Positions 7,034 to 45,052 of a stretch of DNA of 45,052 bases are shown here, piece by piece. The position numbers and the translations under genes are program-made. The notes beneath the pieces were generated by a model, which saw nothing but the letters and a program-made list of their open reading frames with translations, had not been told where the DNA came from and ran no database searches. The stretch lies in IMG/VR virus record IMGVR_UViG_3300047311_000367, positions 1-45,052 of that record. One strand, written 5' to 3'. Source of the DNA: a virus. Numbering within the stretch: the first letter of the stretch is position 1; the number at the start of each line of letters is the position of its first letter.

Positions 7034-7480
7034 ATGAACGAGTCTATTTTAAAAACTACATACTGGCCATACGATGGAGAAACTTTCAACTACGAAAGTA
7101 TGGGTGATTTATTCGACGATTACGATGGATTGACGCCGGGAAGTATTATATACTACGGATATAAAACCGACGACCCTTTACCTAATTGGATGAACTCCGA
7201 TAAATTAATTGAAATACTAGAATGTGAAGCATTCGAAGAATTTGGAGAAATCGCAGAAGGATTCCCTATTGTCACCCAGCAGGCGAGGAAAGAATTCGAC
7301 ACTTTTATCGCAAAATGGCTCAAGAAACATGTAAAAACAACGTTTTATCACATTGAAGGTATAAAAGAGTACACCGTAACTGAGGAAGATTTGATAGATT
7401 ATTGGGGCGAAGACACGATGAAAACTATTTTGGACATTCGTCAACAGCATCAAGAAATGCAAGAACAAAAAGAGGCTTAA
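7034..7480 (+). CDS. Hypothetical acidic protein, 148 aa
   Basis: Starts 2 nt after the previous gene, with GAGGAG immediately upstream. The product is acidic and rich in aromatic residues, with a C-terminal helical stretch ending in a Gln/Glu-rich tail (QQHQEMQEQKEA). No family is recognised. The segment YYGYKTDDPLPNWM could be a small beta domain. Confidence 0.6.
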   Translation: MNESILKTTYWPYDGETFNYESMGDLFDDYDGLTPGSIIYYGYKTDDPLPNWMNSDKLIEILECEAFEEFGEIAEGFPIVTQQARKEFDTFIAKWLKKHVKTTFYHIEGIKEYTVTEEDLIDYWGEDTMKTILDIRQQHQEMQEQKEA

Positions 7481-7482
7481 TA

Positions 7483-7923
7483 ATGAAACTAATCGAAAAA
7501 CTAGTAAAATACGCCTTGAAACGTCCATATTCTCATATAGGTTCATATATGGAGCGATATTGGATAATCCCTTATAACCGTTTTACACCCGCAGTTAGAA
7601 TACACTACATAAAAGAATCTGACGACAGTCGTGTTTTTCATGACCATCCTTGGTGGTATATAACGATTATTTTAAAAGGGGGTTATACAGAAGTAAAACC
7701 CATATTTGATGATCTCGGCAATTTAATTGGGGAGCAACGTCGACGCTTTAATGCGGGTTCAATACTTTTTCGTCGAGCAAAATCATGGCATCGCTTAGAA
7801 ATAGAACCAAACGACAATACTTGGACGTTATTCATCACCGGAAAATGGCAGCAACGTTGGGGTTTTTTGATACATTCTCAAAAGAAAATGTACTATAAAG
7901 AGTATCTAGGCAAAAGCGAATAG
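7483..7923 (+). CDS. Cupin-like protein
   Basis: Start ATG 7483 has AGAGG 8 nt upstream; an in-frame ATG further upstream overlaps the previous gene and is rejected. 146 residues. VFHDHPWWYITIILKGGYTE followed by GSILFRRAKSWHRLEI matches the two cupin motifs, with His residues of H-D-H and W-H as likely metal ligands. Substrate unknown. It could modify a nucleotide, sugar or peptide, but no partner enzyme is visible next to it. Confidence 0.6.
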   Translation: MKLIEKLVKYALKRPYSHIGSYMERYWIIPYNRFTPAVRIHYIKESDDSRVFHDHPWWYITIILKGGYTEVKPIFDDLGNLIGEQRRRFNAGSILFRRAKSWHRLEIEPNDNTWTLFITGKWQQRWGFLIHSQKKMYYKEYLGKSE

Positions 7924-29166: not shown

Positions 29167-29381
29167 CGCCGTGCCTTATCCATCAAGTACGTGTTGTGAT
29201 TATTGGTCTCCAACACATCCAACAATGAGAACATGTCCTCAAGACTATACACGGTCTGTAATTCGTGCAAAGTCGCCAGTTTTGATGTTATCACGACTCC
29301 CATGTAGGTAGACATGGTCAGATACCTAATCGGCGTGATGTCGTTTCTTCGGCCACTTAACTGGCGTCCGTGGCGTTTGTA
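29163..29381 (-). CDS. Tail assembly chaperone, -1 frameshift extension
   Basis: A 72-residue open frame in the -1 frame relative to the chaperone gene. It starts at the slippery T7 run (29387-29381) and ends TGA 29163, overlapping the next ATG. Its core LHELQTVYSLEDMFSLLDVLETNNHNTYLMDKARR matches the second half of the G/GT-type tail chaperones. It is probably made only as a fusion with 29357-29764, though an internal ATG at 29315 exists. Confidence 0.75.
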   Translation of the reverse strand, partial: YKRHGRQLSGRRNDITPIRYLTMSTYMGVVITSKLATLHELQTVYSLEDMFSLLDVLETNNHNTYLMDKARR

Positions 29382-29764
29382 AAAAAATCAGTATGTAATT
29401 TGAAAATTGCCACTCTGAGTTTGACCCGTGTTGCTACTTCTTCTGCACCATCGTCATTCCAAGGGATAGACACTTCGGCGTGTTGTTTGTCCGGATGAAT
29501 GCGCACGCACTTTAGTAAGTCATTTAGCAAGTCGCGAGCTTGTTCCGAAGGAAGATGCGCAATTTGTCGAAACCCATGTTTTAACAACCCGAGCATTCCC
29601 TCCTCAACCAAACTTTCTGCAATAGACGAATCTGCGGCAAGCAAAATTTGTCCAATACGGAGTGCCCAATATTCGGCATCTGCGGCAGACATTTCTGTGA
29701 TCGTGTAGAGCTTCCCTTTGTCTCTGCCATCTTCGCCCTTCCACACCACAGTCTTTCTCGCCAT
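29357..29764 (-). CDS. Tail assembly chaperone (short form)
   Basis: 135 residues. KLYTITEMSAADAEYWALRIGQILLAAD...LLNDLLKCVRIHPDK...VATRVKLRVAIFKLHTDFF is typical of myovirus tail chaperones that hold the tape measure during tube assembly. Near the 3' end, codons GAT TTT TTT ACA give a T_TTT_TTT slippery heptamer. A fraction of ribosomes shifting -1 would make the longer form. The gene is preceded by the conserved leader element. Confidence 0.8.
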   Translation of the reverse strand: MARKTVVWKGEDGRDKGKLYTITEMSAADAEYWALRIGQILLAADSSIAESLVEEGMLGLLKHGFRQIAHLPSEQARDLLNDLLKCVRIHPDKQHAEVSIPWNDDGAEEVATRVKLRVAIFKLHTDFFTNATDAS

Positions 29765-29776
29765 GTCGGCTCTCCC

Positions 29777-29923
29777 GGCTTAGTGAATCTTCGGAAAATG
29801 GTAGTTGCACACGGAGCCGCCAAGCGGAGTTTGCACCTTGTACAGATGATCAACGGTAGTAGATCAGATGTACATCATCTACCCTGTGCGGTGATGCTAC
29901 CATTTTTCGTGTTCACTTGTCAA
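29777..29923 (-). ncRNA. Conserved structured leader element, copy 2
   Basis: Three blocks are identical to copy 1: 29777-29789, 29873-29896 and 29911-29923. CTACCATTTT (29897-29906) pairs with AAAATGGTAG (29795-29804), a perfect 10-bp helix (P1). A hairpin (about 29859-29882) and a small CCGC-TTG-GCGG hairpin (about 29817-29827) lie inside P1. Outside it, TTCACT and AGTGAA from the end blocks can pair. The ribosome site GGGAG and chaperone ATG follow 12 nt later. An intrinsic terminator lies directly upstream. TTGACA with an 18-bp spacer to TAGCAT also fits a promoter, so the transcript start is unresolved. Confidence 0.7.
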
Positions 29924-29974
29924 TTTTTTAATATTTACGACTTTACGAATCTATTACATTGTCATTGTCGAAGC

Positions 29975-30000
29975 AAAAAAAAGCACCGCCGAAGCGGTGC
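29975..30000 (-). terminator. Rho-independent terminator after the tail tube gene
   Basis: On the minus strand GCACCGC, CGAA-type loop, GCGGTGC (30000-29983) is followed by eight T (29982-29975). A textbook terminator, separating the head/sheath/tube operon from the tail/baseplate operon. Confidence 0.9.
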
Positions 30001-43063: not shown

Positions 43064-44131
43064 CTATGCCGCCTTGAAAAGTTTATCGCACATCGCACGC
43101 GTCGCTTGTTGTTCGTCGGCTTTCTTTTCGCCTGCGCGTTCGAGTTCATCGTGTGAGTAGTAATCGACACGACGAGAACGTTTCAATTGCACAATGCGCA
43201 AACGGGGGTCGTTCATGTACTGCGCCATGAACAATTCAGATAGCGTCGCGTGATAGAACGACAACGTCGGTTCGCGTTTGAGTTCCACCGCTTTGTACAT
43301 TTGCGTCAAAACCGCGTAGTCGTGCAGCAATACCTCGAAATCACGCAACGCTCCGAACTGTTGAAACTCTTTCGCGCGCAACAACGTAAGGTCATGAGAT
43401 GAACATGTCAGGCGTGCAGGACAATGTCCGCAATGTCGCCCAGGCACTGTGTGTGATAGATGTGAAGCCCGAGCGCGCGCCACCTCTGTCGTCAAGCGCG
43501 CAGCACGTTCTTCAAACGACGCAAACGGCAGATCGACATACTTAACTTTTCCACCTGCAAAAGCACTTGGAGCCAGAATTGCCAAACGCACCGTCTCGAT
43601 CTCTCGGTAACCATCAAAAACGACTCGTCGCATCAAACTCTGCATAGCCAATATGGCATACCCTTCGATCTGCCTATTCGGATGTTCTCGACTGCCTATG
43701 TCGACAGGGCGTGCACCGAATTTAGCGTCTGTCACAAGGAACAATTTTGCCTGTGGAAACCACGCTGCCACGTCCAATGTACCGCCTACGTCTTCACCGA
43801 CGATTGCATGCGCACTGACGCGTTGTTCAAGCCATATAACGTGTGGGCGCTCGCCGACTGGAAAGATCGATACCAAGGCGTCTACAGCCTCGCGCGCAAG
43901 CATTAGTTGCCGTGCCGTTGGTATGCCATCGTATACGCTCACACGACCCCCTATAGCGCATGCAAAACGCTCGTGCAGCAGATGAGCGAACAATTGATGT
44001 TTGCGTGTCCCATCAATGGCGTAGACGGAATCTTCGTCTTGCTTGCCTGCACTAGAGGCCACTGACGCTGGACACAACGCCCAACGGTCGCGCGCACTCA
44101 TTGAGTACTTGGCTCTTTTAATGTCATTCAC
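43064..44131 (-). CDS. DUF2800 PD-(D/E)xK nuclease-like protein
   Basis: 355 residues from GTG 44131, with GGAGACG upstream. YSMSARDRWALCPASVASS at the N-terminus, ...GGTLDVAAWFPQAKLFLVTDAKFGARPVD (D-x-K core) and the late Cys set CGHCPARLTC match DUF2800, a Cas4/AddB-like nuclease with an iron-sulphur-type Cys cluster. It probably acts in replication or recombination with the polymerase and Enc34-like SSB, which DUF2800 accompanies in many phages. Confidence 0.82.
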   Translation of the reverse strand: MNDIKRAKYSMSARDRWALCPASVASSAGKQDEDSVYAIDGTRKHQLFAHLLHERFACAIGGRVSVYDGIPTARQLMLAREAVDALVSIFPVGERPHVIWLEQRVSAHAIVGEDVGGTLDVAAWFPQAKLFLVTDAKFGARPVDIGSREHPNRQIEGYAILAMQSLMRRVVFDGYREIETVRLAILAPSAFAGGKVKYVDLPFASFEERAARLTTEVARARASHLSHTVPGRHCGHCPARLTCSSHDLTLLRAKEFQQFGALRDFEVLLHDYAVLTQMYKAVELKREPTLSFYHATLSELFMAQYMNDPRLRIVQLKRSRRVDYYSHDELERAGEKKADEQQATRAMCDKLFKAA

Positions 44132-44618
44132 TGTCGTCTCCTACAAAGCATCCGGTCATTGTTATATAGCTGTCTCTGTGAACTTTGCTAGCTATTTTTT
44201 GTACAATTTTTTGAGCTTTGGGAGAACACTGACTGAGGTTATACAAAGCATCCTTTTTGAATTTATAGTGCTGCTCAAATAATAGTTTTATATCCTCACT
44301 ATCCAGATTGTTTAGACAGTTCGCAATTGATTCGTGATCGGCAACTATTTTGTTTTCATGTGTCGGTTCGAAGTGCATGACTTTTACGCCATTGCAAATG
44401 AACGTTCTTGGGAGTTTGTTCTCTTCTATGAGGTCACAAATTTTGCGTGATCGCGCTTTGACTGCCTCTTCGAGTTCGCGAATTTTTTTACGGTATGCGC
44501 GAATGTCTTTGAGGTCTGGGTAAATATCTGCCAAGACCGTAGGGTCAGCTTTGCAGATACGAGGGAGGGCAGATGCCCCCTTTTGGTATACCAGGGCGTT
44601 GAACTTTTTTTTAGCCAT
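44124..44618 (-). CDS. Hypothetical protein, first gene of the late operon
   Basis: 164 residues. Lys-rich N-terminus, helical middle (LKDIRAYRKKIRELEEAVKARSRKICDLIEENKLP) with coiled-coil heptads, then a small alpha/beta part. No family is certain; host-nuclease-inhibitor/Gam-like proteins share the coiled coil and the place before DUF2800. Overlaps DUF2800 by 8 bp. The conserved leader element precedes it. Confidence 0.6.
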   Translation of the reverse strand: MAKKKFNALVYQKGASALPRICKADPTVLADIYPDLKDIRAYRKKIRELEEAVKARSRKICDLIEENKLPRTFICNGVKVMHFEPTHENKIVADHESIANCLNNLDSEDIKLLFEQHYKFKKDALYNLSQCSPKAQKIVQKIASKVHRDSYITMTGCFVGDDSE

Positions 44619-44925
44619 GTTGACATGTACCTTTCTAAAGGTGGCGTCGGGCTTAGTGAATCCACGGAAGATGATACTTCATAACGTAGCGCCAGGCGAA
44701 GTATGACGAATGCATAAGGGCTCAGGCTTCCGTTAGGATGAATGAGCACTTGTGCATCATCTACCCTGTGCGGTGATGGTATCATCTTACAGGTTCACTT
44801 GTCAAGCTTTGAACACATATTACATTGTCATACACGAAAAGGGGTTATTTTTGTACGTTATTCAAGGTAAAAAATAGCATTTTGTCATATTCGACATTTT
44901 CCGAATTCTCTAAATAGCATTTTGT
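44619..44925. other. Non-coding region between the late operon start and the genome join
   Basis: Together with bases 1-126 this is the largest gene-free stretch. It holds leader element copy 1 (44650-44805), an ATGACAATGTAATA motif on the minus strand (about 44817-44830, also at about 29951-29964) and the first 17-bp repeats from 44872. No credible small gene was seen: minus-strand frames crossing it overlap the structured element. Confidence 0.7.
44650..44805 (-). ncRNA. Conserved structured leader element, copy 1
   Basis: Blocks identical to copy 2 lie at 44650-44662, 44755-44778 and 44793-44805. Between them GTATCATCTT (44779-44788) pairs perfectly with AAGATGATAC (44668-44677), forming helix P1. 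Relative to copy 2, three of the ten pairs have changed on both sides and none breaks pairing. Inside P1 lie a hairpin with an 11-position stem (44735-44745 with 44757-44767, one mismatch) and a CGC-CTG-GCG hairpin (about 44690-44698). TTCACT and AGTGAA in the end blocks may pair outside P1. TTGACA, 18 bp, TACCAT also fits a promoter; if that start is used, one P1 strand would not be transcribed. Confidence 0.7.
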
Positions 44926-45007
44926 CATGCAAATAGCGATTTATCATAAGACTAGGTAGTTAGTGCAATGACATATCTACATGCACGAAAAAATAGCATT
45001 TTGTCAT
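44872..45007. repeat. 17-bp direct repeats (iterons), candidate replication origin or operator array
   Basis: AAATAGCATTTTGTCAT occurs exactly at 44872-44888, 44912-44928 and 44991-45007. A copy with three mismatches lies at 44931-44947. Start-to-start spacings are 40, 19 and 60 bp, close to multiples of two helical turns, so bound proteins would sit on one face of the DNA. Because of the circular overlap the last two copies also appear at 6-22 and 66-82. A weaker relative ending in ATTGTCAT lies at about 44817-44830. The array is in AT-rich, gene-free DNA downstream of the primase-helicase and upstream of the late operon. An iteron-type origin or a repressor array both fit. Confidence 0.65.
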
Positions 45008-45052
45008 ATAAATAAGCCGATAGAATACTAAAACTAGTTACCACTCACCGGT
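44926..45052. repeat. Terminal direct repeat, right copy (assembly overlap)
   Basis: Second copy of bases 1-127, exact from start to end. Removing one copy gives a 44,925-bp circle in which the iteron region runs directly into the end of the primase-helicase gene. Confidence 0.95.

Follow-up and report, generated by a model that had tools for sequence, protein, structure and literature searches.

A predicted late promoter that shares its bases with one strand of a conserved helix in two leader elements of a phage genome

Two related elements of about 150 bp stand at operon heads in a viral genome and share base pairing that is kept where their sequences have diverged. This locus raises the question of which molecule folds in this way, RNA or DNA, and what the fold does for the operons that follow.

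Genome organization and placement of the two elements

The window, i.e., the whole 45,052-nucleotide stretch of DNA that was analyzed, comes from a virus record. As its first 127 bases are identical to its last 127 bases, it represents a circular or end-redundant phage genome with 44,925 unique bases. Plus-strand genes between 2.7 and 18.1 kb include those for a helicase, a family A DNA polymerase, MazG, and a Holliday junction resolvase, and minus-strand genes running from 44.6 down to 18.3 kb encode terminase, portal, sheath, tail chaperone, and endolysin proteins. Relatives of the terminase and tail chaperone in phage records are less than 60% identical, and the capsid relatives in IMG/VR show an identity of up to 71%. 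The early region also contains a cysteine dioxygenase-like gene (phrog_4786, 7402-7923) and a gene for a 241-aa protein with an HU-type DNA-binding domain (PF00216, 16101-16826).

Both elements are located on the minus strand at operon heads, with same-strand genes upstream. Copy 1 (44650-44805) lies downstream of a primase-helicase gene on the same strand, and a search for a terminator between this gene and copy 1 found none. The first gene after copy 1 encodes a 164-aa protein of no known family (44124-44618, minus strand) and is followed by DUF2800, TerS-like, TerL, portal, and capsid genes, so that the label "head operon", given to this site in an earlier note made from the sequence, is right. 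Copy 2 (29777-29923) precedes the tail assembly chaperone gene (phrog_1932, 29357-29764, minus strand), and the operon upstream of it is closed by an intrinsic terminator (GCACCGC-TTCG-GCGGTGC followed by T8; 29983-30000, minus strand). In the capsid relatives, no leader separates the tube gene from the tail chaperone gene, which directly adjoin; therefore, the operon boundary at copy 2 is particular to this lineage.

Blocks and helices common to both copies

Alignment bears out the description of the two elements as real, diverged copies with three exact blocks in common, TTGACAAGTGAAC, CATCACCGCACAGGGTAGATGATG, and GATTCACTAAGCC. Helix P1 (AGTGAA/TTCACT) consists of a 5′ strand at 44794-44799 in copy 1 and 29912-29917 in copy 2 and a 3′ strand (44655-44660 and 29782-29787) contained in the third invariant block, GATTCACTAAGCC (44650-44662 and 29777-29789). 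Helix P2 pairs AAGATGATAC (44779-44788) with GTATCATCTT (44668-44677) in copy 1 and AAAATGGTAG (29897-29906) with CTACCATTTT (29795-29804) in copy 2. As the earlier note had stated, this 10-bp helix is perfect in both copies with three compensatory pairs between them, and the joining lengths of 5 nt and 7 nt between P1 and P2 are the same in both. The invariant middle block, which corresponds to the candidate helix P3 (CATCACCGCACAGGGTAGATG; 44758-44778 in copy 1), is identical in copy 2 (29876-29896). It is followed by the P4 hairpin (44710-44757 and 29838-29875), in which two further pairs are changed on both strands between the copies. A weak candidate hairpin, P5 (44680-44705 in copy 1), contains no double changes and has a near zero probability in copy 1.

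The final letters of the invariant block, AGGGTAGATGATG (44756-44768 and 29874-29886), might act as a weak ribosome site for a mini-ORF placed at the start of the late mRNA. This mini-ORF has 12 codons in copy 1 and 4 codons in copy 2, and its peptide is not conserved.

Evidence for selection on base pairing

RNAalifold, given the alignment alone, recovered P1, P2, and P3 together with most of P4; five of the pairs are double-compensatory, a covariation seen in two sequences, both from one genome. It also added a pair at columns 15/142 that changes from U-G to C-G. When the 3′ partners were shifted by 1-3 columns, the paired cells fell from 90% to 24-40% and the double changes from 5 to 0. Under a free-substitution null, a perfect P2 with at least three double changes is expected by chance at ~1e-5, and column permutation produced a shared helix of even 8 bp in none of 1500 trials. 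The pairings of P2 and P4 thus both vary and covary, and P1 and P3 are without covariation evidence because neither of them ever varies.

The hand-drawn structure contains no G-U pair among its 47 pairs, which hinted at DNA, but the pair added by RNAalifold is U-G in one copy. The plus strand folds as well as the minus strand or better; therefore, the folding energy does not name the strand.

A predicted promoter within the 5′ arm

In both copies, the DNA encoding the 5′ strands of P1 and P2 is also promoter-like, supplying a spacer and an extended -10, which the earlier note did not see. A sigma70-type sequence, TTGACA-N18-TGnTAnCAT, spans these 5′ strands in each copy. The -35 hexamer TTGACA is located at 44800-44805 in copy 1 and 29918-29923 in copy 2, and the -10 hexamers are TACCAT (44776-44781, preceded by TGA) and TAGCAT (29894-29899, preceded by TGG). 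In a promoter scan, both copies gave 10 matches out of 12 plus the extended -10. A weight-matrix scan of the whole genome ranked copy 1 second and copy 2 third on both strands together, and the two copies rank first and second on the minus strand alone. The best alternative promoter-like sites upstream score 8.3 (copy 1) and 6.8 (copy 2) versus 12.95. From this match, we infer that transcription starts near 44769 and 29887.

The P1 5′ strand begins directly 3′ of the -35, and the P2 5′ strand ends within the -10. The positions of P2 that vary in the promoter arm fall in the spacer, at the n of TGn, and at position 3 of the -10, all of which are promoter-neutral, and each of these changes is matched by a change on the downstream strand. 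The simplest reading is therefore that promoter and pairing are both under selection. If the predicted starts are used, P1-P2 cannot form in the promoter's own transcripts, and the complete fold would be confined to DNA or to RNA that comes in from upstream. The earlier note had held that the covariation points to a folded RNA rather than a protein operator and that the idea would fail if transcription always started within P1. As it had argued, the evidence for selection on the pairing is good, and a pair of operators explains it poorly. However, the 5′ strands of P1 and P2 fall in predicted promoter DNA and are absent from that promoter's own predicted transcripts, and the predicted starts come close to the failing case, since these transcripts would lack the 5′ half of P1-P2.

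Further motifs are found upstream of the promoters. The motif TGACAATGTAATA occurs at 44818-44830, 12 nt before the -35 of copy 1, and at 29952-29964, 28 nt before that of copy 2 (both minus strand). Three exact copies of a related site, TGACAAAATGCTA, lie between 44875 and 45006, and together with a degenerate fourth they form an array upstream of copy 1 (44869-45009) with a spacing of ~40 bp. The TGACAAAATGCTA repeats are probably regulator or origin sites, and the TGACAATGTAATA and TGACAAAATGCTA sites are candidate binding sites for a phage regulator acting on the late promoters.

Search for related elements

The earlier note had been unable to match the element to a known RNA family, and a search of the window against Rfam at the gathering threshold likewise gave no match. 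No family, riboswitch or other, reached its gathering score. At loose thresholds, the sub-threshold Rfam matches on the element were at chance level; a GcvB-like match covered only the upstream terminator and not the element. The exact block was not found in IMG/VR and GTDB genomes, and a 15-nt sub-block gave 7 chance matches, all without the fold. Gapped patterns of P3 and P1 retrieved 89 and 54 viral stretches, respectively, and the P2 helix was present in none of the loci fetched. Blastn against phages and plasmids returned only chance matches, and no prophage relative was found via the capsid in GTDB.

A covariance model built from the two sequences detected exactly two minus-strand copies in this genome, with plus-strand echoes at the same places, and no copy in eight phage genomes, 80 capsid-related loci, and 25 whole viral contigs that are also capsid-related. 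Because this model is narrow, being derived from two sequences of one genome, distant relatives are possible and the absence of homologues is weak evidence.

A proposed start-site-dependent leader

Our leading reading, which is tentative and falls somewhat short of an even chance, is that a start-site-dependent leader separates the late operons from upstream transcription by a means other than masking of the ribosome site, with processing of the stem as the likeliest route. The element would be a late-promoter cassette, one per late operon head, in which a single stretch of DNA has two jobs. As DNA, it would serve a sigma70-type promoter as spacer and extended -10, and as RNA transcribed from the upstream genes, it would supply the 5′ strand of a long imperfect P1-P2 stem closing over the leader and the P4 hairpin. 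Transcripts started at the promoter would begin within the invariant middle block and would retain P4 but not the 5′ strand of P1-P2, so that the fold of the leader would record the origin of transcription. Read-through RNA would then be handled differently from late-promoter RNA, insulating the operon from its upstream neighbor. For example, an enzyme of the RNase III type might cleave the two-turn stem, and P1-P2 with its internal loop may have a suitable length for such processing.

Ensemble folding of the read-through RNA gave probabilities near 1 for P1, P2, and P4 in both copies, except at the mismatched positions of P4. P3 did not form in the copy-1 ensemble, and it has a pair probability of ~0.95 in the read-through RNA of copy 2. 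An alternative helix of promoter-started RNA, between the invariant block and the P2 3′ strand, appeared in short folds and was rejected owing to its low probability with more context. The mean unpaired probability of the SD and AUG is similar in read-through RNA and RNA beginning at +1; for the AUG, the values are 0.28-0.58 versus 0.60 in copy 1 and 0.52-0.68 versus 0.56 in copy 2. As the accessibility of the ribosome site hardly changes, no direct output of such a switch is predicted, and the reading is therefore committed to a route of operon separation different from T4-like masking. The terminator before copy 2, which should limit read-through there, counts against it. Furthermore, the invariance of P1 and the third block exceeds the needs of pairing, suggesting a sequence-specific partner that lies outside this reading. 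A broader statement is possible and to be held with more doubt than belief: that the promoter spacer and -10 are kept complementary to their own leader in a duplicated cassette, and that the site of initiation sets the multibranch fold, and hence the fate of the entire late operon mRNA, without masking of the ribosome site.

The closest known architecture is the T4 gene e and I-TevI type of leader. In T4 gene e, a late promoter is already known to encode the 5′ strand of a leader structure, and in the leaders of T4 gene e, soc, 49, and I-TevI, a helix hides the ribosome site or start codon (PMC3014915). The likeness is that promoter DNA encodes the 5′ strand of the stem and only upstream-started RNA folds. 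In contrast to these leaders, the ribosome site and start codon lie outside the stem here and are predicted to be about equally accessible, and the structure is a 150-nt multibranch in two copies with a sigma70-type promoter instead of a T4 late promoter. The elements also resemble the EGeRS1 leaders of pLS20-family plasmids, in which multibranch structures recur a short way upstream of the ribosome sites of several operons within a single replicon; however, the EGeRS1 leaders are 420-750 bp long with no constitutive promoter found inside (PMC8708921), whereas the elements described here are ~150 bp long with a strong predicted promoter in the closing stem.

Alternative explanations

It is conceivable, although doubtful, that an unrecognised phage promoter further upstream, perhaps at TGACAATGTAATA, transcribes the whole element, which would then work in cis as a folded RNA, for instance as a put-like antiterminator of the two long late operons, one of the roles considered in the earlier note. 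The covarying structure, the conserved motif upstream of both copies, and the U-G to C-G change, which is typical of RNA, are consistent with this idea, as is the presence of two copies heading two long operons, given that HK022 put also has two copies (PMC9378689). HK022 putL and putR are likewise two related structured cis elements near a promoter, one per long phage operon. An element of the put kind would bind the beta-prime zinc domain of RNA polymerase and suppress termination. However, put is ~70 nt in length and consists of two stem-loops downstream of the start (PMC9378689), whereas here a closing stem surrounds a multibranch of ~145-150 nt in both copies, and the 5′ strand of the outer stem is promoter DNA. 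The 5′ arm overlaps the best predicted promoter, although the start itself is predicted only; this promoter is strong in both copies, the upstream sites are only weak, and copy 2 has barely 60 nt between the terminator and the -35 for a second promoter. Membership of the HK022 put family is unsupported; size, topology, and position differ, and an upstream start would be required.

An unlikely alternative is that the pairing acts in DNA, either as a hairpin in a single-stranded replication intermediate or as a promoter cruciform, akin to Frpo. The lack of G-U pairs agrees with it, as do the good folds that either strand gives under DNA parameters (z -4.2 to -5.8), and the stem runs exactly from the beginning of the spacer to the middle of the -10, the rest of which is open. 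In Frpo, the promoter elements of single-stranded DNA are contained within a stem. The present elements likewise have promoter elements within a stem of a sequence that can fold, and they differ in that the -35 hexamer is outside it: TTGACA lies 5′ of P1 and stands unpaired opposite AAGCC, whereas both the -35 and -10 lie within the stem in the Frpo arrangement. The Frpo mechanism is described in PMC8708921. A single-stranded DNA stage is not known for this type of genome, and the U-G to C-G change also speaks against pairing in DNA.

A quite improbable explanation dispenses with a selected fold altogether and treats the arms as inverted sites for a DNA-looping regulator, equalised by template switching between inverted repeats. 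This would account for the invariance of P1 and its flanks and for the perfect match of the P2 arms within each copy. It does not account for the asymmetric joints of 5 and 7 nt and the P4 mismatches, which persist in both copies, or for P4, which covaries elsewhere in the element. The least probable explanation is that, in early read-through RNA, the leader hides the ribosome site downstream of it in just the manner of T4 gene e. This explanation shares the layout of a promoter within the 5′ strand but conflicts with ribosome sites that lie outside the stem, with the distance of 37 or 18 nt between the end of P1 and the start codons, and with a predicted accessibility that barely changes.

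Implications and further structured sequences

The two copies amount to a natural experiment: the same bases answer to both promoter function and RNA (or DNA) pairing, and a mutation on one strand is compensated on the other. A start-site-dependent fold, if true, would give phages a compact means of distinguishing read-through from promoter-made mRNA while leaving the ribosome site unmasked. At its small size, the cassette is suited to reporter work.

Two other structured sequences were observed in the window near the primase gene. A terminator-like hairpin is located on the minus strand at 2499-2524, just inside the first possible start of this gene, and the true start may lie further downstream, or the hairpin may be an attenuator. 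In addition, where the primase gene and the first plus-strand gene diverge (2654-2760), there is a 27-nt inverted repeat, 96% matched, with a 30-nt loop and a fold z of -6.6. The pairs GAAGTCAG/CTGACTTC and CCCGT/ACGGG interleave with this repeat in a manner resembling a pseudoknot or an alternative fold.
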